A DNA stretch of 64,000 bases, from assembly GCA_027067055.1 (NCBI GenBank), contig JAMOMK010000110.1, positions 1 to 64,000 on the forward strand, in the 5' to 3' direction. This stretch comes from Lysobacterales bacterium. Lineage in GTDB: Bacteria > Pseudomonadota > Gammaproteobacteria > Xanthomonadales > Marinicellaceae. The first letter of the stretch is position 1; every line of letters starts with the position of its first letter. A program made the position numbers and the translations under genes. Below are positions 877 to 43,760 of this stretch, piece after piece. A model generated the notes under the pieces. It worked only from the letters and a program-made list of their open reading frames with translations, was not told the DNA's origin and ran no database searches.

Positions 877-2135
<1,259 letters not shown>

Positions 2136-2185: not shown

Positions 2186-2485
<300 letters not shown>

Positions 2486-2530
2486 ATTAAGTCTTTAATT
2501 TTTTATTAACTTAATTAGGAGAATATCGCA

Positions 2531-3001: not shown

Positions 3002-3002
3002 T

Positions 3003-3530: not shown

Positions 3531-3560
3531 CTAATAGTTTAATAACTCTATATAAATAAC

Positions 3561-3580
3561 GAGTTATAAAAGTATAACTC
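3561..3580 (+). other. Small hairpin in the atpH-atpA leader
   Basis: GAGTTATA and TATAACTC form a perfect 8-bp stem with a 4-base loop, ending 23 bp before the atpA start. There is no T-run, so it is not an intrinsic terminator. It could affect mRNA processing or translation of atpA, which is needed in three copies per complex; this is inference. Confidence 0.4.
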
Positions 3581-3603
3581 ACTAATTGGAAAGAGGACTC
3601 GCA

Positions 3604-5151: not shown

Positions 5152-5184
5152 GCTTTTAGGTAAACAATTAATTAGAGAACAATT

Positions 5185-6045
5185 ATGGCAGTTGGAAGTG
5201 AAATTGTAACCAAAATCAAAAGTGTGCAGTCCACCAAAAAGGTGACTTCCGCTTTGGAAATGGTTTCAGCCAGTAAGATTAAGAAGGCCAAAGATCAGAT
5301 GTTGGAAGCGCGACCTTATGCACGACAAATGCAAAAAATAATAGGTCATATGGCGCATTCATCACCAGAATACAGACATCCTTTTATGAAAGAGCGTGAA
5401 ATTAAGCGTGTAGGATATGTTGTTATTTCCACTGATCGTGGATTATGTGGTGGTTTGAATACCAACCTTTTCAAGAAAAGTCTTGCGCACATGAGGGAAT
5501 ATCAGGATGGGAATATTGAAATTGATGTTGTAACTGTTGGAAATAAAGCATCAAACTTCTTTAAGAAGATTGCGGTTGATTTAAAAGCCAGTATTCCTTC
5601 ATTAGGTGACAATCCTGATTTAACTGACTTAATCGGTGTGGTTAAAGTGATGCTTGATGCCTTTGGGGATGAAAAAATTGACAGACTTTATTTAGTCTTT
5701 AATGATTTCGTTAACTCCATTACGCAAAAGCCAGAAGTTCAGCAGATGTTGCCATTAAAGCCAGACAAAGATAAGCAAATTCGAGATAATTTTGATTACA
5801 TCTATGAACCAGAAGCTAAAGAAGTTCTAGAATACATATTAGGTCGTTATGTTGAAGCCCTAGTTTTTCAAGGGGTTCTTGAAAATCTAGCCAGTGAACA
5901 TGCGGCACGTATGGTTGCGATGAAAAATGCAACCGACAATGCAACTGACCTAATTAAAGATTTACAATTAATATATAACAAGGCGCGTCAAGCTGCCATT
6001 ACACAAGAAATTTCTGAAATTGTCAGCGGTGCTGCTGCAGTTTAA
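5185..6045 (+). CDS. atpG: F0F1 ATP synthase subunit gamma
   Basis: Central rotating shaft, 286 residues. The N-terminal helix ([21 protein letters not shown]) and the C-terminal helix ([18 protein letters not shown]) that form the coiled coil inside the alpha-beta hexamer are both clear, as is the [11 protein letters not shown] motif. Length equals that of E. coli AtpG within one residue. It follows atpA by 33 bp. Confidence 0.97.
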
Positions 6046-6057
6046 GGGATAAAATAG

Positions 6058-7473
<1,416 letters not shown>

Positions 7474-27127: not shown

Positions 27128-28798
27128 TTAACCAACACCAGTAATCGTACCATCTTCTTGTACTTCAATCTTGGTCGCAACAGGAATTTTTGGTAAACCT
27201 GGCATACGCATAATATTACCCGTTAATACCACCAAAAAGCCAGCACCAGCATTAATCTGAATACCCCGAACGGTGACTTGGAAATCTTTGGGTCTGCCGT
27301 GCAGTTTAGGATCATCCGATAATGAGCTTGGTGCTTTAGCTATACACACGGGCAAATGTTCTAGCCCTAATTTTTTAATTTGTAATAAATCTTTTTCCGC
27401 ATCTTTGGTGAAGGATACATCATCAGCACCGTACATTTTTTGACTCACTTTGGTGACTTTTTCAAACACAGAATCAGTGCTCTCGTAAAGTGGTTGAAAG
27501 GCTTGTTTATTTGTTGCCACATCCATCACGGCTTGAGCCAATTCTACCGAACCTTTGCCACCTTCAGTAAAATGGCGAGACTCGGCAAATTTTATGTCCA
27601 GTTTTTCCACATGTGACTTCACTATAGCTATTTCGGCATCAGTATCAGCTGCAAAGCGATTGAGTGCTACTACCATCGGTTTGTTGAATTTTTGTACGCT
27701 ATCAATATGCTTGTTTAGGTTTTCTAACCCAAAAGCAACGGCACTTAAATCTTCTGATTCTAAATCTTTTTCATCTTTACCACCGTGTAATTTTAGGGCG
27801 CGAATGGTCGTGACTAAAACCACGGCAGCAGGATCTAAATCAGCCGACTGACACTTAATATCAAAGAACTTTTCGGCACCTAAATCAAAACCAAAACCCG
27901 CTTCGGTAATTGCCCAATCCGAATAATGCATGGCCATCTTAGTGGCGACTACCGAATTACAGCCATGAGCAATATTAGCAAAAGGGCCACCATGAATGAA
28001 GGCGGGACACCCTTCTAAAGATTGCACTAAATTTGGATGGATAGCATCATTTAATAATGCCATAAGCGCGCCTGTAAAGTTTAATTGTTGTAAGTAAACA
28101 GGGTCATTATCGTATGTGTAGCCGAGTAAAATTCGATTGAGTCTTTTGCGCAAGTCTTCTTTATCATTGGCCAAACACAAAATTGCCATGATTTCAGAAG
28201 CCGCTGTTATATCAAAACCACCTTCACGAGGTACGCCTTGAAACTTGCCACCTAGTCCCAAAACAATTTGACGCAAAGAGCGGTCATTCATATCCATCAC
28301 TCGACGCCAAACAATACGTCTGGGATCAATGTTGAGCTTGTTGCGGTGATAAATATGGTTGTCTAGCATGGCTGAAATCAAATTGTTGGCAGATGTTATT
28401 GCATGAAAGTCTCCTGTGAAATGTAAATTTATTCGACTAGCGGGAACAACTTGGGCATAACCACCACCTGTTGCACCACCTTTAATGCCCATGCAAGGAC
28501 CTAAAGAAGGTTCTCGCAATGCCAAACAAACAGACTCACCTAATTGTTTTAAACCTTGGGCTAAACCAATTGAAGTAGTGGTTTTGCCTTCACCAGCTTT
28601 GGTTGGAGTTGTTGCCGAAACCAAAATAAGTTTATTAGGATTTTTGCTGGGTCTTTTTTGTTTTAATGCATCCAAATGCACTTTGGTTATTTCTTTACCA
28701 TAAGGCATCAACTGTGCTTCATCAATTTGCATTTTTTCTGCAACCGATAAAATAGGTTTAACTTTGGTTTTCTTTACAATTTCACTGTTTGATAACAT
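27128..28798 (-). CDS. fhs: Formate-tetrahydrofolate ligase
   Basis: ATP-dependent synthesis of 10-formyl-THF. 556 residues, the family's usual length. The P-loop-like TPTKAGEGKTTTSIGL, the LREPSLGPCMGIKGGATGGG segment and GPFANIAHGCNSV are conserved. The open frame extends into the upstream gene; ATG 28798 with an ACGAG site gives MLSNSEIV and a 16-bp gap, and is preferred. Fhs is not universal in Gammaproteobacteria and points to active one-carbon metabolism. Confidence 0.96.
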   Translation of the reverse strand: MLSNSEIVKKTKVKPILSVAEKMQIDEAQLMPYGKEITKVHLDALKQKRPSKNPNKLILVSATTPTKAGEGKTTTSIGLAQGLKQLGESVCLALREPSLGPCMGIKGGATGGGYAQVVPASRINLHFTGDFHAITSANNLISAMLDNHIYHRNKLNIDPRRIVWRRVMDMNDRSLRQIVLGLGGKFQGVPREGGFDITAASEIMAILCLANDKEDLRKRLNRILLGYTYDNDPVYLQQLNFTGALMALLNDAIHPNLVQSLEGCPAFIHGGPFANIAHGCNSVVATKMAMHYSDWAITEAGFGFDLGAEKFFDIKCQSADLDPAAVVLVTTIRALKLHGGKDEKDLESEDLSAVAFGLENLNKHIDSVQKFNKPMVVALNRFAADTDAEIAIVKSHVEKLDIKFAESRHFTEGGKGSVELAQAVMDVATNKQAFQPLYESTDSVFEKVTKVSQKMYGADDVSFTKDAEKDLLQIKKLGLEHLPVCIAKAPSSLSDDPKLHGRPKDFQVTVRGIQINAGAGFLVVLTGNIMRMPGLPKIPVATKIEVQEDGTITGVG

Positions 28799-28814
28799 TC
28801 TTAATCTCGTTAAA

Positions 28815-29330
28815 TTATTGTGGCCCGCCACTGTGGATAATTTCGTAGTATTTCTTTTCCAATTCTAACTTATGTTCCGCTTCTTCGATAGCCAAGAAAC
28901 GAAAAGTATCTTGTAATTCACCCTCGGGAGCATTATCTGCCAAATCTTGGTATTGCTTCATTGCCGCATCCTCGCGTGCCAGCGCATATTGCAAAATCGT
29001 TTGGTCATCTGGGTTGTCACCTAAATCTAATAACTGCACATAGTCCGAAAATTTGTGGTTTTCAGTTGGCGTTTTGATGCGCTCATCCAATTGACTTTGT
29101 ACATAAGGATCATTTTTTAAGGACAAAAACAAATCATAATGCTGTTGTTCTTCTTCTGCTAATTCCTCAACAATATAGCGGATGTTTTTACTCACCTTTG
29201 GAATCATTGCTGTGTAAAAATCCCGAGCAGTTTTTTCAAAAGAAACAGCCACATCTAAAATTTCTTTCAGTGTTGTTTTCAACTTCAATTTTTCATAGGA
29301 CTTTGAATGCCCTTCTTTGTGTTTACTCAT
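28815..29330 (-). CDS. Ferritin-like/rubrerythrin-like diiron protein
   Basis: 171 residues. A four-helix bundle with the diiron ligand pattern: FEKTARDFY (helix 1), EELAEEEQQHYDLF (helix 2), LAREDAAMKQY (helix 3) and IEEAEHKLELE (helix 4). The C-terminal rubredoxin domain of classical rubrerythrin is absent. Likely role: peroxide reduction or iron handling. ATG 29330 has GAAGAG upstream; the frame starts six codons earlier. It is the first gene of a pair with fhs, and a large inverted repeat lies just upstream. Confidence 0.85.
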   Translation of the reverse strand: MSKHKEGHSKSYEKLKLKTTLKEILDVAVSFEKTARDFYTAMIPKVSKNIRYIVEELAEEEQQHYDLFLSLKNDPYVQSQLDERIKTPTENHKFSDYVQLLDLGDNPDDQTILQYALAREDAAMKQYQDLADNAPEGELQDTFRFLAIEEAEHKLELEKKYYEIIHSGGPQ

Positions 29331-29356
29331 ATTATTCTCTTCATTCAATAAAACCT

Positions 29357-29447: not shown

Positions 29448-31274
29448 TTATTTATTCAAAAATTTATCAATATCATCCGCCACACGGTGTCCATCAGCAA
29501 CTGCATTAATCACATCTGGGCCCTTAACCATATCACCAGCAGACCATAACCATTCAACAGAAGTTGCACCGTTCCCATCAATTTGTATTCTGCCACGATT
29601 CCATTCCAGTTCTTCGGTTAATTCATCACCCAAGATAGAAACATCACTCATTTGACCAATGGCTTCAACCACCATGTCAGCTTCATGAAACTGTAGATTT
29701 TCTTCATCGTATTTTGGTGCAAAGCGTCCTTGTTCATCAAAAATAGAAATCACTTTGACGGTTTCAAGTCCTGTTAATTTATTGTTTTCAATGACACATT
29801 GTTTTGGACCTCTTGCGTCTAAAATAACGATGCCTTCTTCTTTTGATTCAATAACTTCATCATCATCGGCTAAAAAAGTTTTTCCTAGTTGTTCTAAAGC
29901 GGAAACGGTAATATTTACCTCATTGTATTTTTGTTTTTGCAATCGAGCCAGTGAACGTGCAATATCCATTGCCACATTACCACCACCGATAACCACGGCA
30001 GATTTGGGCACATTAAATTCATCACCTTTTGGTATCATGCGTAATAAATCAACGGCTTTAACCACCATCTTGTTGTCACTGCCAGGGATGCGTGTGGAGC
30101 GACCCATTTGCATACCAATTGCCATAACCACCGCATGGTTGTCTTTTTGTAATTGAGCCATGGAAATATCGGTGCCAACTTTGACATTGTATTTGATGTC
30201 AACGCCAACGGATTGTATCACTTCAATATCTTGGTCTAGTCTATCTTTTGGCAAACGGTAATTAGGGATGCCATAGCGAGTCATACCACCAGCTTTTGGT
30301 AAGGATTCATAGACTGTTACTTTGTGGCCTTTTTTAACCAAATCAAAAGCAGCAGTCAAACCAGCTGGTCCTGCTCCTACTACGGCAATGCTTTTACCTG
30401 ATTTTTTGCGTGATTTACCTTTGCGGGCAATTTGTTTGATTTTGGTTTTGGAAACATTATCCATCGCAAAGCGTTTAAGCCAACGAATCGCAATTGGATC
30501 TGACTCACCTTCGCCATGACCAAGTGAGCAAGCGGTTTCACAAATATGGGTACAAACACGTCCACAGACATGTGAAAACGGATTGGTTTCATACATCCAC
30601 TCAACGGCTTGTTCTAAATTTCCTTCATAAATTGAACGAATATAATTAGGTGCATGCATATGAGCTGGACAAGCATCTTCGCACAAGCCACAATCCACAC
30701 AACGCGAGGCTTCTTCTATTGCCATTTCCATGGTGAAACCATCAACAATCTCATCAAAATTATCTATGCGTGCTTCAGGTTCCATTTCACCCATTGGGCG
30801 ACGGGCTCTATCCAGTAAATCGCTGTCTTCGGTTTTGGTCCAGCCTTTTTCAAAACTATCGCCATGAATGCCTGTTTCTTTGGGAAAGATGAAATAACTA
30901 TCAGTTTCATCACCATCACAAACATGCACGTATTCGCGTGTCATTTCTATGGCACTGGTTGGACAAATATCCACACATAAAGCACACCAACAGCAACGAC
31001 CGTAGTCAATGGCTGGACGTAAATTGCGTAAACCTTTTGAAGCGTCCTCTTCAATTGAAGGCACTTCAACCATGGTAATAGCAGCGTTGTCACAAATCTT
31101 TTGGCACGAACTGCAACCAATGCATTTATCTAAGTCGTTAATATGGAAACCACGGTAACTGGCGCTAGCTGGTCTTGGACCAAGCGGTTCAGTGACAGGT
31201 TTTCTGGCATAAAACTGTAAATTCTTTAAAGGATTAAGAATACTGCCTTTGTCATTGTAATTTATTTTTTTCAT
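29448..31274 (-). CDS. Ferredoxin (NuoI/MbxN-like) fused to GltD/NfnL-like FAD oxidoreductase
   Basis: 608 residues. Residues about 42-112 are a two-[4Fe-4S] ferredoxin: C51-x2-C54-x2-C57-x3-C61 and C94-x2-C97-x2-C100-x3-C104, as in NuoI and MbhN/MbxN. After a linker comes the GltD/NfnL module: a further Cys cluster (CVDCGLCEDACP at 192-203, then VCGRVCTHICETAC), an FAD site VVGAGPAGLTAA (about 298-309) and a pyridine-nucleotide site VVIGGGNVAMDIARS (about 428-441). The Arg pair that in GltD/NfnL follows the nucleotide-binding strand appears missing, so NAD(H) rather than NADP(H) is possible. Last gene of the Mbx-type operon; its start overlaps the NuoD-like stop (TAATG). The fusion is inferred to carry electrons between NAD(P)H and the peripheral arm. 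Confidence 0.88.
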   Translation of the reverse strand: MKKINYNDKGSILNPLKNLQFYARKPVTEPLGPRPASASYRGFHINDLDKCIGCSSCQKICDNAAITMVEVPSIEEDASKGLRNLRPAIDYGRCCWCALCVDICPTSAIEMTREYVHVCDGDETDSYFIFPKETGIHGDSFEKGWTKTEDSDLLDRARRPMGEMEPEARIDNFDEIVDGFTMEMAIEEASRCVDCGLCEDACPAHMHAPNYIRSIYEGNLEQAVEWMYETNPFSHVCGRVCTHICETACSLGHGEGESDPIAIRWLKRFAMDNVSKTKIKQIARKGKSRKKSGKSIAVVGAGPAGLTAAFDLVKKGHKVTVYESLPKAGGMTRYGIPNYRLPKDRLDQDIEVIQSVGVDIKYNVKVGTDISMAQLQKDNHAVVMAIGMQMGRSTRIPGSDNKMVVKAVDLLRMIPKGDEFNVPKSAVVIGGGNVAMDIARSLARLQKQKYNEVNITVSALEQLGKTFLADDDEVIESKEEGIVILDARGPKQCVIENNKLTGLETVKVISIFDEQGRFAPKYDEENLQFHEADMVVEAIGQMSDVSILGDELTEELEWNRGRIQIDGNGATSVEWLWSAGDMVKGPDVINAVADGHRVADDIDKFLNK

Positions 31275-32425
31275 TATCTATCTACCTCTGGTGGACAGGC
31301 ATCGAGCGAGAACATAATCTGCGCAACATCCTCTAAACGTGCACCTTTAGCTAAAAACTCCAGCGTTTGCACGGCATGCATGGAAGATGGGCCACGAACA
31401 TGAACCCGATAAGGTTTATCACCACCATCTGAAACTACGTAATAAGCCAATTCGCCTTTGGAGGATTCTACCCGTGCATAGGCTTCGCCTTTACGTACAT
31501 TCCACGAAAGCGGATTAGGGATTGGCGTGCGAATCTTGCCCTTAATTGAAGGCAAGCGTTCAATGATTTGACGTAAAATGCGTATGCTTTGGAATAGTTC
31601 ATCACGTCTTACTAGAATACGCGCATATGCATCACCTGCCGTTTGAATCGGAATATCAAACTCTAGTTCATCATAAACCAAATAAGGATCATCACGACGC
31701 ACATCATAAGCCAGACCACAAGCGCGTAAATTAGGCCCTGTAACACTGAGCTCTAAGGCTTGTTCTTGTGTTAATGCGCCACAACCTTTGGCACGATCGA
31801 CAAACACTTGGTTGGTGAACAATAAGTTATCGTAATCGTTTTGGCGTGATTCGAGGTAATCCAATAAGTTGCTGAGTTTTTGTAAAAATTCTGGAGGCAA
31901 TTCGCGACGAACACCACCAGGGATATTGTAAATACTGTAAACTCGACCACCGGTAAAGTCTTCAAACAAATCCAACACTAAATCCCTGTCGGCAACCCCC
32001 CAAAACATCGGTGTATACATGCCTGTTGTAGCAGCATGCCCACCAAAGGTGAATAAATGGGCTGCAACACGGGATAATTCCAACTGCATGGTACGAATCC
32101 ATTGAGCTCGAATCGGTGCTTCTATTCCCATGATTTCTTCAACAGCCATGGAATAAGCCACTTCCATTGGCGCAGGGTCTGGCACACAAATCCGCGGAAC
32201 AATAGCTAAGTTTTGTATCCACAAACGTCCCTCCATCAGTTTTTCAAAGCCACGGTGTAAATAACCTGCATCAGCCTTGCCACTGACGACGATGTCGCCA
32301 TCAAGCATTAACCTAAAGGCATAGTTGCCTTCGATTCCTGGATGATTTGGGCCAATGAAAATTTCGTATTCATTGCTTTGCCCAAGTTTTACAGCTTGGT
32401 AATTTTCTGGTCTCATTGTTTCCAC
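31274..32425 (-). CDS. NuoD/hydrogenase-large-subunit-like protein (MbxL-like)
   Basis: 383 residues (380 if ATG 32416 is used). NuoD/NiFe-hydrogenase large-subunit fold: GPNHPG near the N-terminus, YLHRGFEKLMEGR, and a C-terminal end SLDACPPEVDR. In NiFe hydrogenases two CxxC pairs hold the metal. Here the N-terminal pair reads R-I-C80-V-P-D and the C-terminal pair D-A-C377-P-P-E, so one Cys of each pair is left. That is unlike true hydrogenases and unlike NuoD, which lacks all four; partial loss is what I recall for MbxL/MbsL. The active site could hold a different chemistry or none. It overlaps the NuoC-like gene. Confidence 0.85.
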   Translation of the reverse strand: METMRPENYQAVKLGQSNEYEIFIGPNHPGIEGNYAFRLMLDGDIVVSGKADAGYLHRGFEKLMEGRLWIQNLAIVPRICVPDPAPMEVAYSMAVEEIMGIEAPIRAQWIRTMQLELSRVAAHLFTFGGHAATTGMYTPMFWGVADRDLVLDLFEDFTGGRVYSIYNIPGGVRRELPPEFLQKLSNLLDYLESRQNDYDNLLFTNQVFVDRAKGCGALTQEQALELSVTGPNLRACGLAYDVRRDDPYLVYDELEFDIPIQTAGDAYARILVRRDELFQSIRILRQIIERLPSIKGKIRTPIPNPLSWNVRKGEAYARVESSKGELAYYVVSDGGDKPYRVHVRGPSSMHAVQTLEFLAKGARLEDVAQIMFSLDACPPEVDR

Positions 32426-33066
32426 CCCTGCATTTTTTCATTTGCCTTAACTGCGGCTGCTTTGGCTTTATCACGCTCACGGTGTGTTGACATATTATGC
32501 GTGTTTCCAGCCGTGCGAATGTCTTCAGGTTTAACCGCAATACCACCACCTTGATCAGTTAATTCTTGTAACCAATCTGGGTTGTAATCCGTCCATTTAA
32601 AGGTTTCTTGTACGTAAGCTTCTGCATCAAAGTCTTTGAGCATAGGCGGTACGCCATTCCATTCGGTTAGGATAAATTTTTCCATACGCGGTGAACCAAT
32701 AAAAGTGACACCGTACATTTCAAAAATGTCACGTTCAAAGAAATCAGCGGGTTTAAATAAATCATAAACCGAAACGTATTTCGCCGGGTTGCTTTCACTG
32801 CCTCTATCAATGCGCGTGTGTGCCGAAATCAAACATTTTTCTTCATACGACCACACGTGGTAAACCAATTCAAACTGATTATCAGCAATCCAATCAACGC
32901 ATGTTATGGCGGATAAATGAATGTAGGATGCACGCCCTTTTATCAATTCTAAAAGAGTTGGCAAGGAATCTGCATCAACATCAACACGAATACGTGTTTT
33001 ACGTTTGTGTGTTATCTTGATGCCATTAACCTTATTTAAGATTTCATCTATAGGTACTTTGTTCAT
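32413..33066 (-). CDS. NuoC-like 30-kDa subunit (MbxK-like)
   Basis: 217 residues. The family core is visible: HLSAITCVDWIADNQFELVYHVWSYEEKC in the first half and the diagnostic FFERDIFEMYGVTFIGSPRMEKFIL in the second (NuoC: RExWDMFGIxFxGHPxLxRIL). The C-terminal 50 residues are a charged extension with PEDIRTAG and a Lys/Ala-rich tail, longer than in complex I. Its stop overlaps the start of the NuoD-like gene, its start overlaps the end of the NuoB-like gene, so all three are translationally coupled. Confidence 0.88.
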   Translation of the reverse strand: MNKVPIDEILNKVNGIKITHKRKTRIRVDVDADSLPTLLELIKGRASYIHLSAITCVDWIADNQFELVYHVWSYEEKCLISAHTRIDRGSESNPAKYVSVYDLFKPADFFERDIFEMYGVTFIGSPRMEKFILTEWNGVPPMLKDFDAEAYVQETFKWTDYNPDWLQELTDQGGGIAVKPEDIRTAGNTHNMSTHRERDKAKAAAVKANEKMQGWKQ

Positions 33067-33761
33067 TATTTAATCCTCATTTCTTGAGGTAATAAAGGAG
33101 TTTGGTGTTTCTCCAATAACTTCGTGTGTTTACCGTAAGTTTCTTCGGTTTCTAAGTCGTAGAGTTTTGCTTCAGCAATAATATCCGTTGGTGTTTGCCA
33201 ATCATCACCAAACAAAGCTTGTTGGTTACCCAAATAATAATCGTAACGGTTAAAATAGTCTTTCCAAGCACTGCCTTTATGTTCTTTCTTGTCGTTACGA
33301 ATATTGTCTTTTAAACGTTGCAATCCTTCCATTACCGCTTCAGGTCGCGGCATACAACCAGCGATATAAACATCAACAGGCATATACTCATTGAGTTTTT
33401 TGGCTGTGGCATAACTTTGCCAATACATACCACCATTAACCGTACACGAGCAAATTCCAATCACGTATTTGGGCGACTGCATTTGTTCGTAAGTCAGAAT
33501 CACACGTTTAAGTGTTTTGATGGAAACATAACCAGTAATCAATAAAATATCGGCCTGCCTTGGTGTTACCATCGGTTGAATACCCAAGCGCTCCATATCA
33601 AAACGCGAAGTCATGGCTGGTGGTAATTCTATCGCTCCGCAACCTGTACAATAATGCAACATAAATAAGGATTTAGATTGGCAAAAGCTAATAAAGTCAT
33701 CGAACACATGTGCCAATGGATTAGTGCGTTCTTTTTGTATAATTTTTAATTCTTTTTTCAT
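33066..33761 (-). CDS. NuoB/hydrogenase-small-subunit-like protein (MbxJ-like)
   Basis: 231 residues, single [4Fe-4S] proximal cluster protein. The ligands are C38-x2-C41 in YCTGCGAIEL, C106 in SCTVNGGMY (an extra C104 precedes it) and C136 in AGCMPRPEA. The CxxC spacing is that of hydrogenase small subunits and Mbh/Mbx J, whereas complex I NuoB has adjacent Cys-Cys, so this is a group-4-hydrogenase-type subunit. ATG 33761 with AAGGAA upstream is preferred over the TTG ten codons earlier. A 180-bp gap separates it from the NuoH-like gene, the only sizeable gap in the operon. Confidence 0.88.
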   Translation of the reverse strand: MKKELKIIQKERTNPLAHVFDDFISFCQSKSLFMLHYCTGCGAIELPPAMTSRFDMERLGIQPMVTPRQADILLITGYVSIKTLKRVILTYEQMQSPKYVIGICSCTVNGGMYWQSYATAKKLNEYMPVDVYIAGCMPRPEAVMEGLQRLKDNIRNDKKEHKGSAWKDYFNRYDYYLGNQQALFGDDWQTPTDIIAEAKLYDLETEETYGKHTKLLEKHQTPLLPQEMRIK

Positions 33762-33821
33762 AATTTTTTTCCTTAGAGATCTCTTGCGCAACTATATGGC
33801 GAAAGAAAAAATAGAGAAAAT

Positions 33822-33868
33822 TTGCCAGATTGAGGCGGAAATCGTAGGTAATAGTCCGCTATTGGCAA
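33822..33868. repeat. Imperfect hairpin in the gap inside the Mbx-type operon
   Basis: Within the 180-bp spacer (33762-33941), TTGCCA and GCGGA (33822-33839) are mirrored by TCCGC and TGGCAA (33855-33868), giving an interrupted stem. The spacer separates the membrane half from the hydrophilic half of the operon. It could be an RNA processing site, a repeat insertion, or an internal regulatory leader. Confidence 0.35.
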
Positions 33869-33941
33869 GGTTTTCAACGAAAAGCTGGTGAATTTAATCA
33901 TTTTTTTTGTCATCATAGTTGTGTAAAGGTCTCTATATATC

Positions 33942-34829
33942 CTATAAAATAAACGCTAAGCTAATTAAGGCGAGCATAACGGGCCATTTCCATAAAATGC
34001 GTATCACATCTTCGGTCTTATAACGTGGGAACATAAAGGCAATACTCATTGGTAATGCCACTACTAAAAAGGCTTTGGGTAATAAGGTCAAGAAGCTTGT
34101 GCCACCACCAAGGAATAAAGAGGCATATAAAACACCTGCGGTGTAAAGTTGGAAAGTCTGCATCACAAACAAACCACCCATGTATTTACCACTCATTTCC
34201 ACCATTGGACCAGTAGCAATTTCAGCTGGTGCAATATAAATTTCAAAAGGTTGTTTGCCCAACATGCCTTGTAAAGCAAAGAGTCCTGCAATGGCTAATA
34301 AAGGCATTTCAACAATACCCCATTGGTGCATTTGTTGGTACTCTATCATGCCAATTAAGGATGTGCTTTGGTAATGCCAAGCAGCCCCAAAAACCACCAA
34401 AATGAAAGGAATGTCATATGCCAACATCGCGGTTAGTGCGCGTGAAATACCGATTGAGCCATTTGGGTTGGCACATTGACCAACGCCAAGAGCCATGCCC
34501 AAAGAAGGAATCATCAAAAAGTACGACAAGGTAATTACGCCACCTTTAGCGGCAATGCCTTCCATACCAGGCACAGGCAATAAAATCTCAGCGCCGATAT
34601 AACCACCAACAGCCATAATAATGCCAATATCGTGAATCAAGCCATGTGAAATTTGTGTGTCTTTGCCATAAAGTTTAACAATATCGTACAAAGGCTGAAA
34701 AAATGGAGGGCCTATTCGGCGTTGTAAGCGTGCGGCAATTTTACGCATCATCAACACCATCATCATACCGACGATAAAAGCAATCAAAGGCATAAAGATA
34801 AGTTCTGCCATTAAGTGTAAAGCATTCAT
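33942..34829 (-). CDS. NuoH/HycD-like membrane subunit (MbxM-like)
   Basis: 295 residues, eight predicted membrane helices. It connects the peripheral redox arm with the antiporter module. NuoH-family features: RKIAARLQRRIGPPFFQPLYDIVKL near the N-terminus and a loop PFEIYIAPAEIATGPMVEMSGKYMGG corresponding to NuoH PFD(L)xEAExELVxGFxxEYSG. It overlaps the preceding antiporter gene by 4 bp. In the archaeal MBX/MBS order the M subunit also follows H and H'. Confidence 0.9.
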   Translation of the reverse strand: MNALHLMAELIFMPLIAFIVGMMMVLMMRKIAARLQRRIGPPFFQPLYDIVKLYGKDTQISHGLIHDIGIIMAVGGYIGAEILLPVPGMEGIAAKGGVITLSYFLMIPSLGMALGVGQCANPNGSIGISRALTAMLAYDIPFILVVFGAAWHYQSTSLIGMIEYQQMHQWGIVEMPLLAIAGLFALQGMLGKQPFEIYIAPAEIATGPMVEMSGKYMGGLFVMQTFQLYTAGVLYASLFLGGGTSFLTLLPKAFLVVALPMSIAFMFPRYKTEDVIRILWKWPVMLALISLAFIL

Positions 34830-36715
34830 GCGCCTACTCCTAAGTTTCTATACAGTGCAAACAAGGCCAATACCACTCCGATTAGCAATAACATCACGGG
34901 TTGTTTGGCACGGTAAATATTTTCAAAGAAAATGGAGAAAAAACTTACCACTGAAACAATGGAGTTTTCCAACCATTTAAAGCTACCACGGTACCAACCA
35001 CCAATAAGATGCATTAAACCAGGGTAGAAATTGTTAGAATAATGGTAACGCACATCAGATGTGAGGAAGTGGCCACCCGCATAATTATCGTATTGGTGTA
35101 CACGTTTTGATTTGCCACCAAGGAAGTAGAAAATCAGAGCTCCGACACCAAAACCGTAAAACAGAATACCGCTGACCCAAATCATATCCAATCCGCCTTT
35201 GGCGTATTCGATACCACCAAGATGATGCGCAATAACTGGTAAGCCAACGCTTTCTTGAACCGATGCAATCCACGGTAGAATCAAGCCAGGCATAAATCCT
35301 GTGATAAAGACAATGATTGATAAGCCCAACATAGGCACTAACATGCTCCAAGGCACTTCACGCACGTTTTGATGCTCGAGGCGAAGTTGTCCAAGGAAGG
35401 TATTGTGAATTAATTTATAAACCGAAAGAATAGTTCCTAGGGTTCCGAGTACTGCGGCTACAAATAGTAGTGGCTGTCCATTGACTAATAGAGAACGATA
35501 AACCAACCATTTAGAGACAAAACCATTCATCGGTGGTAATCCTGCTAAGCCGATGATGCCAATTAACATCACTAAAAAGGTCAATGGCATTTGAGTCACT
35601 AAACCACCAAGCTTATTCAAGTCTGAAGTGCCTGTGCGGTACATTACTGCTACAACAGTCATAAATAATGCCGCTTGATAAGAAGCATGGTTTAACACAT
35701 GCATCAAACCACCAGCACTACCAATGCTATCAAACATGATTATCCCCAACAACATATAACCACCTTGTCCAACACCGTGCCATGCCAATAAGCGTTTAGC
35801 ATCGTGTTGTTGCAGGGCAATATAAGTTGGAATGATAGTGGTTAATGCCGCAACCCAAGCCAACAAGGTTTGCATATTAACAAAAGAGATGCCTAATTGC
35901 TTTAACCCGCCTAGTCCAATAAACTGCACAATTACCAAAACAATGGTAAACATGCCCATACGGGATGAAATCGCACCCAAAAAGGCAGCACCAGGACCAG
36001 GGGTTTCGGCATAAGCAATGGCTTGCCATAAGTGAAAGGGTAACAAGCCCATCTTGATGGCAAAAGCCACAAAAAACAACAGAACCAATGCCAACTGTGA
36101 AGAGGTGCTCATTTGGGTGAAGACTTCACCAATTTGTTTAAACTCAAGTGAATTATTAACCGAATAGATCATCACAATAGCCACCATTAGCGCCATTGCG
36201 CCAGTCATGGCATAAACAATGTACTTAACCGCTGATTTCTTAGCTAATTTTGTTGGTGATAAAACCATCATTAAAAAACTAGCCCAAGAGACAAACTCCC
36301 AACCAATAAATAAGGACAATAAATCACCACTGCCAAGCAATAAAATCATGCTGAATACATTGACGATTAATGCTAATTGCAACATGCCATAATTGCCCCC
36401 TTGCTCACGGTATTGCCTACCCCAATCACCCGACATAAAGACTGCTGATGCGAGTGCTGCTACCACTGTAATAATGGCAAAATACCATGATAAAGCAGTG
36501 AATTGCCAGTGCATTTTAAAGTCAAGCAAATCAAGTGAAACCGATGAAAGATAAACATCACCACCATAAGCCACTGATGACATACGCACCAACATGATAA
36601 GGATTAAACCGTATAAAACGGGTGCTAACTTATCAACAATACGTAAGTTTCTCAAAGCCGAAATAGCAATTAAGGAGATGAAAACAACGATAAATAAGTG
36701 ATCTAGAAAAGTCAT
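34826..36715 (-). CDS. Second large antiporter subunit (NuoL/MbxH'-like)
   Basis: 629 residues with about 15-16 predicted membrane helices, proton-conducting membrane transporter family (NuoL/M/N, MrpA/D). The core motif with the conserved Glu is LFIGWEFVSWASFLMMVLSP and a conserved Lys/His helix pair follows (AIKMGLLPFHLW, AVMYRTGTSDLNKLGGL). The extra C-terminal length (about 130 residues beyond the fourteen-helix core) may include a lateral helix. Together with the next subunit it gives two antiporter units, as in MBX/MBS rather than MBH. It overlaps both neighbours by 4 bp. Confidence 0.88.
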   Translation of the reverse strand: MTFLDHLFIVVFISLIAISALRNLRIVDKLAPVLYGLILIMLVRMSSVAYGGDVYLSSVSLDLLDFKMHWQFTALSWYFAIITVVAALASAVFMSGDWGRQYREQGGNYGMLQLALIVNVFSMILLLGSGDLLSLFIGWEFVSWASFLMMVLSPTKLAKKSAVKYIVYAMTGAMALMVAIVMIYSVNNSLEFKQIGEVFTQMSTSSQLALVLLFFVAFAIKMGLLPFHLWQAIAYAETPGPGAAFLGAISSRMGMFTIVLVIVQFIGLGGLKQLGISFVNMQTLLAWVAALTTIIPTYIALQQHDAKRLLAWHGVGQGGYMLLGIIMFDSIGSAGGLMHVLNHASYQAALFMTVVAVMYRTGTSDLNKLGGLVTQMPLTFLVMLIGIIGLAGLPPMNGFVSKWLVYRSLLVNGQPLLFVAAVLGTLGTILSVYKLIHNTFLGQLRLEHQNVREVPWSMLVPMLGLSIIVFITGFMPGLILPWIASVQESVGLPVIAHHLGGIEYAKGGLDMIWVSGILFYGFGVGALIFYFLGGKSKRVHQYDNYAGGHFLTSDVRYHYSNNFYPGLMHLIGGWYRGSFKWLENSIVSVVSFFSIFFENIYRAKQPVMLLLIGVVLALFALYRNLGVGA

Positions 36716-38187
36716 GAGCGATCTCCTAACTGTTTAGTTGGCAAGATTTTGTTGATATAAATATGAGGGCTTGCCGAGTGATTTGCTATGTCCTTCAAAT
36801 GATTGGAAATTGGAGAAACAAACAACATAGAAACCAATAATATTAAAGCAAATAATTTAGCAAAAGTATAAGACGAACTGTAATTTTTGTTTATTGGTGT
36901 CGAATCCGCATCTGCTTTTTGGTACAAAATTCGTACAAATTTAAAGATATAAGCAGTTTCAATGACAGTTGCCAATAAAATGGTTGCAATGGCAACATGA
37001 TACAAACCTCCGCCTTGTTCGGCTAGGTTCAATATTAATAATAGTTTGATCCAAAAACCAGGGAAAGGAGGCACACCAAGCAGGGATAAAACAAACACTA
37101 AAAAGACCGCTGCAGCCATGGGTGAGTGTTTGGCTAAGCCTTTGAGCTTACCCATATGACCAGCAAAACGATCAGCCATCAAGAACAAGCCGCCTTTGAC
37201 GAGCAAATGATGCAACATCAAAGCCATGCCAATCCATAAGCCTTTGGAACCAGCAATCGAGAAAGCGATAAAAATTAAACCTAACTGAGCGATAGAGGAG
37301 AACGACAACATACGAATCATGTCTTTTGCTCGCCATGCCACCATTTCGCCACTAATCACACCCAACATGCCAACGACTAATAATAAATCAAATGCCGCTT
37401 GTTGTTGAAAGACCATTAATAACATGCGAATAATCAAGATAACCGCTAACTTGGAAACCAAACCCGCAAGTAAAGCTGACAACTGTCTGGGAATAGTACC
37501 GTAAACTTCTGCCACCCATGAATTAACTGGGAACATTTCCGCTTTCACACCAGCACCTATAGCAATCAAAGCAAAAGCTGAGAGCCCTGCAAAACCATCA
37601 AGACTTGTTGTCATGGTAGCAAGGTGAGCAATATTTAAAGTGCCAGTTAAGGTATAGATGATGGCAATACCCAATAACAACATTACTGAACCTGCGCTAC
37701 TGATAAACAGATAACGTAAGGAAGCAGCGGTTGCTGATGAGTTTGGTACTTTAGAAATAGGACTAGCTGCAATAATGCCATAAGTTGCCACAGCTAATAA
37801 TTCATAAAATACATACAAGTTAAATAAATCCGCACTTAAGACCAAGCCAAATGATGCGGCTGACAACAACATATATAAGGAGTAAAGTCGAGATTCTTTC
37901 GCATCCCAAGGCCATACTATAAGCACCATACCGGCAATTAATCCTGAAAATAACAAACTAAAATGATCGATATAGAAGACAATGCCAACAGGTGGTAAAA
38001 ACCCACCTAAGAAAATTGCTTCGCTGCCGCTACCAACCTTTATCCAGGCAGACATAATCAACAGCAGGTTGATACACAACACTACAGGGCCTGTAAATAA
38101 AGACAGTTTGGGCGAAAATTTTGCCACAACAGGAATAATGAATGCCGCAAACAATGGTAAAACCACCAATAAGACTAAACTATTCAT
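36712..38187 (-). CDS. mrpD: MrpD/NuoN-like antiporter subunit (MbxH-like)
   Basis: 491 residues, fourteen predicted membrane helices, matching the length of MrpD/MnhD. Motifs: LFNLYVFYELLAVATYGIIA with the conserved Glu, and GVKAEMFPVNSWVAEVYGTIP with the conserved Lys on the ion path; LMLHHLLVKGGLFL follows. It is the core antiporter unit of the Mrp module. Starts within the end of the MrpC gene (8-bp overlap) and ends within the start of the second antiporter gene. Confidence 0.92.
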   Translation of the reverse strand: MNSLVLLVVLPLFAAFIIPVVAKFSPKLSLFTGPVVLCINLLLIMSAWIKVGSGSEAIFLGGFLPPVGIVFYIDHFSLLFSGLIAGMVLIVWPWDAKESRLYSLYMLLSAASFGLVLSADLFNLYVFYELLAVATYGIIAASPISKVPNSSATAASLRYLFISSAGSVMLLLGIAIIYTLTGTLNIAHLATMTTSLDGFAGLSAFALIAIGAGVKAEMFPVNSWVAEVYGTIPRQLSALLAGLVSKLAVILIIRMLLMVFQQQAAFDLLLVVGMLGVISGEMVAWRAKDMIRMLSFSSIAQLGLIFIAFSIAGSKGLWIGMALMLHHLLVKGGLFLMADRFAGHMGKLKGLAKHSPMAAAVFLVFVLSLLGVPPFPGFWIKLLLILNLAEQGGGLYHVAIATILLATVIETAYIFKFVRILYQKADADSTPINKNYSSSYTFAKLFALILLVSMLFVSPISNHLKDIANHSASPHIYINKILPTKQLGDRS

Positions 38188-38632
38188 GAGCTTCTCCTTT
38201 AACGAGTTTTACCGGAGCTGGTGCTTCGTTACTACCAGGAGGTGTTACACCTGCTTGTGTGGCGATTTCACGTTCCAGTTTTGAGCGGATAGTACGCATA
38301 TCCATGCTGCCATAATGTTTTTTCACTCGGAAAATCAAAGACAATGCCAGTGCTTGAACACCAACACCAATGACTATCGCTGTGAGTACTAAAGCTTGTG
38401 GCACAGGATCATTCATCACTGCACCGCTATTACCATCTAAAAAGATAGGTGCGATACCGTTACGGATAAAACCAGATAAAACTAACACTAAGTTTGCACC
38501 CGCTTCAAATAAGACTAATGAAAGCAACATGCGAAATAGGTTTTTAGAAACCAACAAGCCAAACAAGCCTATGATGGATAAAGATATGGCACCAAAATAG
38601 AGGATGCCTTCTATGGTAAAGAAACTATTCAT
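38180..38632 (-). CDS. mrpC: MrpC/NuoK-like subunit (MbxG-like)
   Basis: 150 residues. Three membrane helices in the first 105 residues (GILYFGAISLSIIGLFGLLV, then LFEAGANLVLVLSGF with the conserved Glu, then PQALVLTAIVIGVGVQALAL) as in NuoK/MrpC, followed by a hydrophilic C-terminal tail of about 45 residues. Start and stop overlap those of the neighbouring genes, so it is translationally coupled in the Mrp block. Confidence 0.92.
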   Translation of the reverse strand: MNSFFTIEGILYFGAISLSIIGLFGLLVSKNLFRMLLSLVLFEAGANLVLVLSGFIRNGIAPIFLDGNSGAVMNDPVPQALVLTAIVIGVGVQALALSLIFRVKKHYGSMDMRTIRSKLEREIATQAGVTPPGSNEAPAPVKLVKGEAHE

Positions 38633-39354
38633 TAGCTTGCCACCTCATCAGTATTCAGGGCCAGTAACAAACCAGCCAATTCTGCTCCAACTTTTAAACC
38701 AACAGCCAGATACAATAAAGGTAATGTCCCTGCTGACCAAAGACTGGCGAACTCGCCATGACCCAATAAAGGCTGTAAAAAACTTTGACCTTTAAATAAA
38801 GCAACAACACCAATCACAATAAAACTAACCCCTGCAAAACTTTCGATAATCGAAACCATGCCATGATTAATGGATACTCTTCGTGGTCGAACAATAACTA
38901 GCATGGAAAAAGCCACCGCTAAAACGACACCACCTTGAAAACCTCCGCCAGGAGTTAAATGACCATGAGTAATAATGTACATACCCACAACCAACAACAA
39001 AGGGAAGATTAAATCAATAGCATTCACCGCGACAAAACCACTGTCATGGTGATCGTGTTTATCATCATTATTGCTGGCATGCTTATTGAAGCTGGATTTA
39101 GTTAAAACCAAACCAACAACCGAAGCGGCTGCAAACAAAATAGATAATTCACCTAGCGTATCCAATCCACGATAGCCAAGCACCACCGAAGTCACGACAT
39201 TGGCTGCTCCTACTTGGTCTTTGGCACCTTCCAAAATAGCATTTCCCACCAACATAGGTGTATGGCCCATTGGAAGTAGCCCAGTTATGACCATGAGTAA
39301 AAATACCAATCCAGAAATAAATAACAATGCAGAATATTTAGTCATGTCGTTCAC
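38632..39354 (-). CDS. mrpB: MrpB subunit (MbxF-like, with extra N-terminal helices)
   Basis: 240 residues. The C-terminal 135 residues are a MnhB domain: LIFPLLLVVGMYIITHGHLTPGGGFQGG and the following helices. The first 100 residues have extra helices with VVLGYRGLDTLGELSILFAAA, which corresponds to the MbhE-like part (the end of MrpA in classical Mrp). So the protein combines the MbhE and MbhF pieces, as I recall for MbxF. It begins within the end of the DUF4040 gene. Confidence 0.9.
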   Translation of the reverse strand: MNDMTKYSALLFISGLVFLLMVITGLLPMGHTPMLVGNAILEGAKDQVGAANVVTSVVLGYRGLDTLGELSILFAAASVVGLVLTKSSFNKHASNNDDKHDHHDSGFVAVNAIDLIFPLLLVVGMYIITHGHLTPGGGFQGGVVLAVAFSMLVIVRPRRVSINHGMVSIIESFAGVSFIVIGVVALFKGQSFLQPLLGHGEFASLWSAGTLPLLYLAVGLKVGAELAGLLLALNTDEVAS

Positions 39355-39616
39355 CTGCTTTTACTTTGTCTATTGAATCGGTCTTCCAATAACCCAGGCG
39401 TTTTAAACCAATGGCTAAAATCAATGAGCTTAAGCCCGCACCAATTGCTGCCTCTGTCATGGCGACATCAGGCGCTTTTACAATCGCAAAAATAACTGTC
39501 AAAGATAAAGAAACCACCGCTGATGCGACTACTGCCGCAATCATATTAGGTAAAAACAACACCGCAAGAGCTGCTGCTAACATAATAAATACCACTACCG
39601 CAACTACCCAAATCAT
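39338..39616 (-). CDS. DUF4040/MbhD-like small subunit
   Basis: 92 residues, three membrane helices. The family core KAPDVAMTEAAIGAGLSSLILAIGLKRLG, including the conserved Glu, corresponds to a C-terminal helix group of MrpA and to MbhD/MbxD. Its existence as a separate gene means that MrpA is split here, the feature that separates Mbh/Mbx-type modules from ordinary seven-gene Mrp operons. Overlaps MrpG and MrpB genes at both ends. Confidence 0.88.
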   Translation of the reverse strand: MIWVVAVVVFIMLAAALAVLFLPNMIAAVVASAVVSLSLTVIFAIVKAPDVAMTEAAIGAGLSSLILAIGLKRLGYWKTDSIDKVKAGERHD

Positions 39617-39963
39617 GAGTCTTTCTCCTTATTATCCGAGACCTTAACTTCACCCTCGGAGTCTTTAATGTCATCCTCTTTTTTGTGCCAAACTTTAATA
39701 CCGCTGCGGTAAAACGCACGGGAAATGGCAGAAGAACTCACTGGAGAAGTCAAAAGAGTGAAACCTAAAATCACCAACAATTTACTCCACCACAATGGAT
39801 GAATCAAAAACAAACCAAATAAAATACCAATAGCACCCAAGGTCACACCTTTTGTACCAACTTGAATTCGGTTGTAAACATCAGGCATGCGGATTAAACC
39901 CACCGCACCTAAAAAAATGAATACCGCACCGAACAAGATAAATAAGTCACCAATAAAATGCAT
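39613..39963 (-). CDS. mrpG: MrpG subunit (MbxC-like)
   Basis: 116 residues, three membrane helices. The MnhG signature is clear: FLGAVGLIRMPDVYNRIQVGTKGVTLGA, then GFTLLTSPVSSSAISRAFYRSG. The C-terminal 25 residues are acidic and lysine-rich (EDDIKDSEGEVKVSDNKEKD). The stop overlaps the DUF4040 start by 4 bp, and the start adjoins the mrpF stop. Confidence 0.93.
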   Translation of the reverse strand: MHFIGDLFILFGAVFIFLGAVGLIRMPDVYNRIQVGTKGVTLGAIGILFGLFLIHPLWWSKLLVILGFTLLTSPVSSSAISRAFYRSGIKVWHKKEDDIKDSEGEVKVSDNKEKDS

Positions 39964-40250
39964 CAGCTTTCCTCCTGCTCTTTTGAACTATCATCTGCTT
40001 TGGATTCAATCACACGCGCTAAAGCAATCATGCCAACAAAGGACAAAACCGCATATACTAAAGCGACATCTAAATATAGAACACTGTCAAAAAATAAAGC
40101 CAGCAAAACCAAAACAACAGAGGCAATCAAATTTAACGCATCGGTTGCCACGATTCTATCTGGATTAGTTGGACCAAAAATCAAACGATAGAGCCCGATT
40201 AATGCAGACATGCCAATTAAAAGCATGGCAATAATTTCAATAAAAGTCAT
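39963..40250 (-). CDS. mrpF: MrpF subunit (MbxB-like)
   Basis: 95 residues, three membrane helices. The conserved GPTNPDRIVATDALNLI motif with Asp typical of MnhF is present, followed by LDVALVYAVLSFVGMIALAR. A hydrophilic Ser/Glu/Lys tail ends the protein. It lies 10 bp after mrpE and overlaps mrpG by one base. Confidence 0.93.
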   Translation of the reverse strand: MTFIEIIAMLLIGMSALIGLYRLIFGPTNPDRIVATDALNLIASVVLVLLALFFDSVLYLDVALVYAVLSFVGMIALARVIESKADDSSKEQEES

Positions 40251-40260
40251 ATTATTATCC

Positions 40261-40764
40261 TCATTTTAAGAACCCCTTAAGATACTTCTCAAATTTAGCC
40301 ACAATTAACTGAGTGGAAGTGTTTATATCGCTGTTTTTAGGAACATCAATCCAATGCACCAACAAACTATCACCGACCACATCAACCGTGAGCGTTCCTG
40401 GAGTTAAGGTAATGCTATTAGCCAAAAACAACTTGCCTAAATCAGATTGCATGGTGGTTTTGATTTCAACCACATCGGGATGCAATTTCATGTCTTTAGA
40501 AACCACTCGTTTGGCCAAATCAAAATTGGCTTTAATCAAAGCCATAAAGAAATACCAAAGATAGCTAAGCAAGCCCAAGAAAAACCCAAGATGCAAACGC
40601 AAACCATTGAGAATTTTCATCTTAGGTGCAGATATAATACTGACCACCAATGAAATAATGACACCACTGATAAGCTCATCAGCAGCAAAAGATGCTGTTA
40701 ACAATAGCCAAAGCAATAAGCAAATGACGAAAGTAACAACATAGGGAGAAGACGAATTTTTCAT
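40261..40764 (-). CDS. mrpE: MrpE subunit (MbxA-like)
   Basis: 167 residues, first gene of the operon. Two to three N-terminal membrane helices and a cytoplasmic C-terminal domain with ANSITLTPGTLTVDVVGDSLLVHWIDV, the MnhE signature. A weak AAGGAA site precedes the ATG (AAGGAAAAGTAT then ATG). The 200 bp upstream are shared with a divergent gene and contain an FNR-like palindrome. Confidence 0.93.
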   Translation of the reverse strand: MKNSSSPYVVTFVICLLLWLLLTASFAADELISGVIISLVVSIISAPKMKILNGLRLHLGFFLGLLSYLWYFFMALIKANFDLAKRVVSKDMKLHPDVVEIKTTMQSDLGKLFLANSITLTPGTLTVDVVGDSLLVHWIDVPKNSDINTSTQLIVAKFEKYLKGFLK

Positions 40765-42782: not shown

Positions 42783-43760
42783 TTACTCAAACTCCATTGC
42801 TCGATAAATTCTACCAATGTTTTGTTTAGCTAAATCACTGAAGGTATGAAGGTGTTCGTAGGCGGATAGATCCATTTCGTAGGCTTCTTGTAAATCGCCG
42901 TCGTTTTCTAGGATTTTAGCAACTTGTTGGCGCACGTATTTTAAATAATCAACGGTATATTTGCGTACCTCTACCATAGTTGTAGGTGTGCCGTGTCCTG
43001 GGATGACGGTTTTTGCACCTAATGGTTCAAACTTGGTTTCCCATGTATTAATCCACGCGGCAGTATCAGTGTGATCGGTGACGGGTAATAAGCGTTGGTG
43101 AAATGCCATATCACCAGAAATAACCAGCTTTTGTTGTGGTAGCCACACAACAATATCGCCGGGTGAATGGGCAGGGCCTAAATGCAGGGCTTGGATGATT
43201 GTTCCGCCCATGTTTAACTCATATTTATCATCAAAAGTAATGTCGGCAACGGTGGCTTTGGTAAATTTGCCTTTGTCTTTTTGCCTGTTTTGCATGCGCT
43301 CTACTGAAGATTTGGCATAGCGTTTCATGACGGCTGCAGCATCTTTGTGAGCGACAATTTTAGCCCCTTGTTCTTGCCAGTAGTTTGAACCCAGCATGGC
43401 ATGGCCTTGGGCATTTTCTAAGATGACGTATTTTACCGGTTGTTTGGTGAGCTTTTTAATTTCGTTATGTAAGGCTTGCGCCAGTAAATAGTTGGCACTG
43501 GCATTAACTACGACAACACCTTCATCGGTGATGATAAAAGATAAATTATTATTGTGCCCTGAATTTTCATAGGTCGGGGCCGCTGTTGCACCGATGGCAG
43601 AATAAACATTAGCCGACACCTGTTGTGGGTATTTGTACAGAATTGAATCTGGTGCTAGATAGGATTGTGGTTCAGTTGTTTTTGCAGGTGGAATTTTGAC
43701 ATTAAATTCACACGCTGTTAATAACAAGCTTAAAAACAGTATTGTTAGTATTTTATTCAT
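42783..43760 (-). CDS. Metallo-beta-lactamase-fold lipoprotein with altered metal motif
   Basis: 325 residues. Signal peptide with lipobox LLTAC, so the protein should be a lipoprotein. MBL fold: the first motif, normally HxHxDH, reads ENAQGHAMLG, keeping only one of the expected ligands; the later ligands are kept (GPAHSPGD, VISGDMAFH, PGHGTP). Related proteins encoded near sulfur-oxidation or quinoprotein genes (SoxH-like) are known to me with similar NGQ-H motifs, so it may be a genuine subfamily with a modified metal site and not a dead enzyme. It is a single-gene unit on the minus strand. Confidence 0.82.
   Translation of the reverse strand: MNKILTILFLSLLLTACEFNVKIPPAKTTEPQSYLAPDSILYKYPQQVSANVYSAIGATAAPTYENSGHNNNLSFIITDEGVVVVNASANYLLAQALHNEIKKLTKQPVKYVILENAQGHAMLGSNYWQEQGAKIVAHKDAAAVMKRYAKSSVERMQNRQKDKGKFTKATVADITFDDKYELNMGGTIIQALHLGPAHSPGDIVVWLPQQKLVISGDMAFHQRLLPVTDHTDTAAWINTWETKFEPLGAKTVIPGHGTPTTMVEVRKYTVDYLKYVRQQVAKILENDGDLQEAYEMDLSAYEHLHTFSDLAKQNIGRIYRAMEFE

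Follow-up and report, generated by a model that had tools for sequence, protein, structure and literature searches.

Membrane-bound complexes of the MBX/MBS family are already known, including in Thermotoga, and one has been named in a gammaproteobacterial symbiont. The MBS of Pyrococcus furiosus (formerly Mbx), a sulfur-reducing enzyme of a heat-loving archaeon, has a solved structure (6u8y), and its defining residues are described in the available part of the MBS paper (PMC7684303). Thermotoga maritima MBX is a bacterial 13-subunit homologue whose mbxA was up 4.36-fold with elemental sulfur (S0), as given in the accessible text of PMC9431562, and the mbx operon of this species was called a case of horizontal transfer in the available portion of a 2008 paper (PMC2246101). 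An Mrp-Mbx complex has also been named in Endoriftia, the gammaproteobacterial, sulfur-oxidising symbiont of Riftia, and the accessible sections of that report count MBX with the complexes whose function or direction is unknown (PMC11636981). In this study, we report the analysis of a 64,000-nucleotide stretch from a Lysobacterales bacterium (contig JAMOMK010000110.1 of assembly GCA_027067055.1, positions 1 to 64,000; hereafter the window), in which a minus-strand gene cassette at 29448-40764 encodes a complex that, judged from its sequence, is of the MBX/MBS type and not a complex I remnant. The cassette is a widespread, little-studied variant of a known machine. What appears to be new are a fused flavoprotein with an acidic nucleotide site, a conserved diiron gene, and a joint link with sulfur oxidation and ferredoxin oxidoreductases, none of which we found in the open-licence literature.

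Our reading, to which we give a probability of about 0.55, is that this MBX/MBS-family complex, with its fused NfnB-like flavoprotein and a rubrerythrin-like accessory protein, would couple ferredoxin/NAD(H) with sulfane sulfur and with ion pumping. The parts that the predicted proteins support are the subunit set, four [4Fe-4S] motifs with FAD/nucleotide folds, an MBS-type proximal-cluster subunit, and two antiporter-type together with Mrp-type subunits. The 13 open reading frames at 29448-40764 are intact, mostly overlapping or abutting, and tightly packed, and all were confirmed at the coordinates and in the order given by a first-pass annotation of the same DNA: MrpE-MrpF-MrpG-DUF4040-MrpB (with a weak MbhE part)-MrpC-MrpD-H'-NuoH-NuoB-NuoC-NuoD-ferredoxin/flavoprotein fusion. 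That annotation was right about these 13 genes and overlooked a 14th, rubrerythrin-like gene at 28815-29348. Ten proteins were searched against NCBIfam and nine against Pfam; members of the NuoD, NuoC, NuoB and NuoH families and two Proton_antipo_M proteins were found in the cassette by family search, and MrpE, MrpF and MrpG (39613-40764) were named from gene order and from the same position in relatives, not from a family search. For NuoB, the listed TTG start (33791) probably lies too far upstream; there is an ATG in frame 10 codons further in. The features are as follows.

40261..40764, minus strand: MrpE-like subunit (MbxA); open reading frame, same position in relatives.
39963..40250, minus strand: MrpF-like subunit (MbxB); open reading frame, same position in relatives.
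39613..39963, minus strand: MrpG-like subunit (MbxC); open reading frame, same position in relatives.
39338..39616, minus strand: DUF4040 subunit (MbxD); NF009159 56.5 bits, below its cut-off of 141.
38632..39354, minus strand: MrpB-like subunit with MbhE part (MbxF); PF04039 78 bits, PF20501 25.6 bits, just below its cut-off of 27.
38180..38632, minus strand: MrpC/NuoK-like subunit (MbxG); PF00420 72.7 bits.
36712..38187, minus strand: MrpD-like antiporter (MbxH); top solved structure 6u8y_H, 191 bits.
34826..36715, minus strand: second antiporter-like subunit (MbxH'); top solved structure 6u8y_X, 184 bits.
33942..34829, minus strand: NuoH-like membrane anchor (MbxM); 6u8y_M 181 bits, against 63 for MbhM.
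33066..33791, minus strand: NuoB-like, proximal 4Fe-4S cluster subunit (MbxJ); 6u8y_J 207 bits; true start likely about 30 bases inside.
32413..33066, minus strand: NuoC-like subunit (MbxK); PF00329 88 bits.
31274..32425, minus strand: NuoD-like large subunit (MbxL); 6u8y_L 392 bits, against 270 for complex I; residues; tree.
29448..31274, minus strand: NuoI/MbxN-like ferredoxin fused to an NfnB/GltD-like FAD/NAD(P) flavoprotein; NF010590 817 bits; 6u8y_N and NfnB matches; fold.
28815..29348, minus strand: rubrerythrin-like diiron protein, conserved 14th gene; PF02915 46 bits; found in 88/89 loci; expected ligands.
27128..28831, minus strand: formate--tetrahydrofolate ligase, a neighbour probably outside the complex; NF010030 841 bits.

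The P. furiosus MBS was the top solved structure among the chains listed for five of the six subunits searched by phmmer (L, J, M, H and H'), the sixth being the fusion, and MbxJ scored 207 bits against MBS versus 121 against complex I. The likeness to MBS extends from the subunit set to the retained Ni-site cysteines, an MbsJ-type cluster motif and the lack of any quinone or proton-reduction residue. In an alignment of 93 MbxL proteins, including that of the window, the position of the quinone His (Nqo4 H38) was occupied by Glu in 90, Thr in three and His in none, that of the quinone Tyr (Nqo4 Y87) by Val in all 93, and that of the MBH catalytic Glu (MbhL E21) by Gly in all 93. Both Ni-site cysteines retained in MBS were present in 90/93 (C80 in 91, C377 in 90), the window's protein being among the 90. 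By these residues, the quinone and [NiFe] sites are lost. The window MbxJ aligned with MbsJ without a gap across the cluster motif, all four cysteines matching MbsJ C25, C28, C93 and C123, and the motif is of the MbsJ type, which is shorter than in MBH. Charged-axis residues were identical to those of MBS at four of five positions in H', three of five in H and two of five in M. The MBX/MBS identity proposed in the first-pass annotation finds support in sequence and residues, and the tree backs it less firmly. The complex differs from P. furiosus MBS in that N is fused to an NfnB-like flavoprotein, in the extra rubrerythrin-like gene, and in its occurrence in sulfur-oxidising Proteobacteria.

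A duplicated or degenerate quinone-reactive complex I would explain the general NuoB-C-D-H homology. Complex I shares NuoBCDHI homology with the cassette, but it has NuoEFG and a quinone site, and no gene for a NuoEFG input module is present in the window's cassette. A FastTree phylogeny was built from 59 NuoD-like sequences (51 Mbx, obtained by thinning the 93 at 93% identity, and eight references); the Mbx clade (support 0.998) was separate from complex I (0.907), and the two NuoD proteins of the window's genome fell in different clades. The genome's complex I lies on another contig, where nuoC to nuoN match and nuoEFG is found too (20 kb examined, with nuoA and nuoB outside). The duplicated remnant that, according to the first-pass annotation, would have refuted its reading is therefore not what this locus holds: quinone His and Tyr are gone in 93/93, the clade is separate, complex I genes are elsewhere, and gene order and Mrp subunits differ, so that a complex I remnant was rejected, the degenerate complex I account being very improbable. 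A group 4 [NiFe] hydrogenase of the MBH/FHL type, to which distant homology to MbhL and HycE might point, is more improbable still and was also rejected, two of the four Ni-ligand cysteines being missing and MbhL E21 being replaced by Gly. A plain Mrp antiporter shares the membrane-arm homology, but Mrp has no redox arm, and the redox-arm genes in the cassette exclude it. A plasmid search for MbxL relatives returned 242 records, all below 60% identity, those annotated among the 20 listed being nuoD.

The fusion protein of 608 residues matched NF010590/PRK13984 with 817 bits over residues 9-608, below the model's cut-off of 946. Its top solved-structure matches were NfnB-like chains; in the N-terminal half, MbsN (68 bits) came ahead of complex I NuoI chains, and residues ~157 to 608 matched NfnB/GltD chains. 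In the AlphaFold model, the part from residue ~157 on superposed on NfnI large subunits with template modelling scores of 0.87-0.89 by target length, and the ferredoxin part was modelled poorly, with a predicted local distance difference test score <50 for most of residues 1-153. The protein thus resembles the NfnI large subunit (5jca_L, 4ylf_B) and GltD in the fold from residue ~157 on and in the cluster cysteines, and the nucleotide-binding module that the first-pass annotation had joined to the complex is real by both structure matches and superposition. Cysteines of the four cluster motifs were kept in at least 96 of the 98 aligned fusions; C119 and C493, which we do not read as cluster cysteines, were kept in 88/98 and 67/98, respectively. 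No gene for an NfnA partner is present in the window's cassette (relatives were not searched for NfnA).

The fusion differs from NfnI where the second strand of the nucleotide fold ends: the YRR found in the five NfnB-like structure chains compared is replaced by an acidic-residue motif in 92/98 fusions. Residues in this column were counted from the alignment (an earlier pattern count had left 19 loci unassigned) and were Glu in 87, Asp in five, Gln in three, Arg in two and Lys in one, YRR being kept only in L047 and L049. An acidic residue at this Rossmann-fold position favours NAD(H) over NADP(H). Because such a residue replaces YRR, we infer that the nucleotide site of the fusion favours NAD(H); of the NAD(P)H partner suggested previously, the NAD(H) half is strengthened by the acidic site and the NADP(H) half weakened.

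The rubrerythrin-like gene was found 3' of the fusion in 88 of the 89 loci with at least 700 bases after it, L047 being the exception. The expected diiron ligands E38, E67, H70, E126, E156 and H159 were each present in 86 or 87 of 87 aligned copies. The protein model is a four-helix bundle, for which Foldseek gave no match at E <= 0.001; the top one, the ferritin-like diiron protein 1vjx, had a weak E of 0.0047. PRK12775, a model made up of a glutamate-synthase-beta part and a ferritin domain, was matched weakly (18.8 bits) at its ferritin end, which is suggestive only.

The survey of the cassette in relatives covered 99 loci, some of them the same place twice, and in 67 the sequence ahead of the fusion was at least 9.6 kb long. 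All 12 upstream genes occurred in the same order in 60 of these 67, and also in L046, with an extra GltD-like gene ahead, which excludes a chance arrangement. The first-pass annotation had called for the same operon to be sought in relatives, and the 13-subunit order was thus recovered in 61/67 loci with room for it. Among the departures, two small Mrp genes have changed places in L049, MrpE-F are missing from L069, and L103, from a Lamellibrachia barhami symbiont, lacks the first four genes and repeats the J-K-L matches, through either duplication or an assembly error.

A collection scan using the first 290 residues of the fusion detected relatives in at least 552 of 586 stretches. Of the best 80 of these, which were examined, 34 carry titles that name sulfur-oxidising genera or sulfur-oxidising symbionts of animals, the rest bearing higher-rank names only. 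Carriers named among these 80 were Thiodiazotropha, lucinid and tubeworm symbionts, Sedimenticola, Thiocapsa, Thiohalocapsa, Lamprocystis, Thiohalobacter, Thiolapillus, Thiobacillus, Parasulfuritortus and Thiomargarita. Four of the 80 were Lamellibrachia and Escarpia symbionts, and Riftia's own symbiont was not among the titles. Endoriftia itself is a gammaproteobacterial sulfur oxidiser for which the complex was named, the accessible text of PMC11636981 mentioning neither the fusion nor a 14th gene nor the nucleotide site. The fusion family is present in the T. maritima genome with a score over the curated cut-off, and this genome was the sole one of 14 controls to reach E <= 1e-150. The view of the complex as something unusual in gammaproteobacteria was overstated, given the T. 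maritima fusion family, the Mrp-Mbx complex named in the available description of the Riftia symbiont, and the 552 or more stretches.

Within the window's genus, the fusion was found in seven of 11 genomes, the remaining four being 84-95% complete, and no full-length match was found in 50 other relatives searched. A class sample of 369 genomes was then scored for the fusion (E <= 1e-150), a count of the fusion and not of the whole cassette. It was present in 16 genomes from 15 families; dsrA was present in 118 of the 369, POR_N, which marks a 2-oxoacid:ferredoxin oxidoreductase gene, in 149 and soxB in 151. All 16 carriers had soxB and POR_N, and 15 had dsrA, the exception being the window's own genome. 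The fusion occurred in 16/78 genomes with both soxB and POR_N, 0/73 with soxB only, 0/71 with POR_N only and 0/147 with neither; with genomes treated as independent, conditional tests gave p 1.5e-5 for POR_N within soxB-positive and 1.7e-5 for soxB within POR_N-positive genomes. Sorted by dsrA and POR_N, it occurred in 15/67 with both, 0/51 with dsrA only, 1/82 with POR_N only and 0/169 with neither (conditional p 1.2e-4 and 2.4e-5, again treating genomes as independent). This co-occurrence fits a complex needing a ferredoxin-producing or -using oxidoreductase plus sulfur oxidation in the same cell. In the window's genus, soxB was over cut-off in 7/11 genomes; POR_N was present in 9/11 and RuBisCO in 9/11.

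Under the preferred reading, electrons would be exchanged between NAD(H), at the FAD, and/or ferredoxin, at the N clusters, and sulfane sulfur, by way of the four fusion clusters and the MbxJ cluster. Sulfane sulfur, as polysulfide or persulfide, would be bound and cut at the MbxJ proximal cluster, as proposed for MBS, and electron transfer would be coupled to H+/Na+ translocation. The commonest direction would probably be forward: once O2 or nitrate is exhausted, NADH and the ferredoxin reduced by 2-oxoacid oxidoreductases would be oxidised, with stored or membrane-derived sulfane sulfur as the acceptor. In a reverse mode, electrons of sulfide would be driven by the ion gradient onto NAD+ or ferredoxin, for use in CO2 fixation. 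Forward, anoxic operation is put first because stored-sulfur respiration has been documented in Beggiatoaceae (PMC4959497, the available part of which leaves the enzyme unnamed) and in view of the response of T. maritima mbxA to S0, as the accessible text of PMC9431562 has it. The Mbx cassette is a concrete candidate enzyme for stored-sulfur respiration, and some carriers are in culture, for example Thiocapsa marina 5811 and Lamprocystis purpurea DSM 4197, so that its chemistry is open to genetic testing. A broader proposal is tentative at best: that in sulfur-storing, sulfur-oxidising Proteobacteria a reversible, 14-gene, NAD(H)-linked Mbx cassette would link the ferredoxin/NADH pool with sulfane sulfur, acting both as the reductase of stored S0 in anoxic respiration and as an ion-driven route from sulfide to low potential for CO2 fixation, its diiron protein shielding the cluster from O2.

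The foremost competing account makes reverse electron transport the function itself, the ion gradient driving electrons of sulfide or persulfide to NAD+/ferredoxin for CO2 fixation more cheaply than quinol via complex I could. The presence of soxB in all class-sample carriers and of dsrA in 15/16, RuBisCO in nine of the 11 genomes of the window's genus, and an acidic nucleotide-site residue that fits NAD(H) are all consistent with it. The accessible text of PMC11636981 also reports that the Mrp-Mbx genes of the Riftia symbiont adjoin the reductive tricarboxylic acid cycle, not the Calvin-Benson-Bassham cycle, in a co-expression network, a tie compatible with the reverse direction. Against this stand, among the seven carriers of the genus, one without RuBisCO and two without POR_N (drafts), and the absence of the fusion from 149 of 165 soxB- or dsrA-positive genomes, hence no general need; we consider this account unlikely, though it is the strongest of the alternatives. 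Less likely again is that the complex would act as an ion-coupled NAD(P)H:ferredoxin oxidoreductase, analogous in function to Rnf and with no role for sulfur. This would account for the union of ferredoxin-type cluster motifs with a nucleotide fold in a single chain and for POR_N in 16/16 class-sample carriers, but under it the MBS-type proximal-cluster subunit would have no substrate, and soxB in 16/16 and dsrA in 15/16 would be unexplained.

Several observations weigh against the preferred reading of a sulfane sulfur-linked MBX/MBS complex. The drop from ferredoxin to polysulfide, about 0.2 V, would suffice for about two ions, and NADH to polysulfide drops little; the latter is too small for several ions, so that ferredoxin input or reverse flow is required. 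For two of the proteins with YRR, structure entries carry titles that describe them as NAD-bound (9bov, 9n5v), and loss of YRR is therefore no proof of NAD(H). Within MbxL, Ni-site cysteines are lost in 3/93 (the second in L035, both in L047 and L049). In the phylogeny of the NuoD-like subunit, one of those proposed as a check by the first-pass annotation, MbxL did form a clade apart from complex I, but its grouping with MbsL was weak (support 0.578). Charged-axis residues are changed at MbsH E219 (to K) and H330 (to L) and at MbsH' K248 (to R), and the M subunit is identical at E203 and E211 only, with D196 replaced by E, E193 by Q and E104 by M. Within 10 kb of the fusion, L093 has only J-K-L, L119 only K-L, and L130 (Thiomargarita) no upstream genes; the rubrerythrin-like gene is retained in all three, which may be split operons, breaks in draft assemblies, or cases of the fusion being used without the pump. 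The p-values above ignore relatedness, the class genomes not being independent. In the window's genus, dsrA was found in 0/11 genomes, the flavocytochrome c (FCSD) flavin domain was over cut-off in 0/11, with one match below it, and POR_N was not seen in two of the seven carriers (drafts, 94% and 87% complete). When oxidoreductase, dsrA and soxB proteins were searched against 101 loci (the 99 and two chosen for a nearby oxidoreductase), oxidoreductase genes lay near the cassette at only three places (G074, G305 and L127), and neither dsrA nor soxB had a match near it at any of the 101. An activity for the fused version was not found in the open-licence literature.

As a separate observation, the MbxL proteins of L035, L047 and L049 form a divergent branch (support 1.0), two of the three loci (L047 and L049) retaining YRR, and this branch may represent a second functional subtype. 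At one of the three places with a nearby oxidoreductase (L143 590-5306, in G074), three genes lie immediately before mrpE in the same orientation: one for an oxidoreductase alpha subunit, one GltD-like and one small. In the window's own genome, two further GltD-like flavoproteins are encoded directly beside ferredoxin oxidoreductase genes (L145 4520-9792 on contig C11 and L146 3117-7789 on contig C134), one of these oxidoreductases being of the single-chain pyruvate type and one of the two-gene type.

Genes flanking the cassette were also considered. The formate--tetrahydrofolate ligase gene was rejected as a partner: it was seen only beside the window's cassette and in L032, L051 and L055, lies farther off in one genome of the window's genus (G008), and occurs as a neighbour only in that genus, to which L032 belongs. 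It is probably a local neighbour and not part of the complex. Six flanking genes in relatives (lipase, TolC, RhlB, PAP2 phosphatase, YifB-like and one unmatched) point to no common pathway and were set aside as a guide to function.

Elsewhere in the window, an ATP synthase operon was found at 1275-7473, and its c subunit (2198-2485) carries an LLDA stretch, which we take to be of the H+ type; on this motif, a Na+ gradient could not drive the window's ATP synthase directly. The gene at 42783-43760 encodes a protein of the metallo-beta-lactamase fold, with SoxH-related quinoprotein relay hydrolases as its closest match (135 bits, below the cut-off of 280). A protein with a HipA-like C-terminal domain (PF07804), possibly a toxin-antitoxin kinase, is encoded at 13261-14556.

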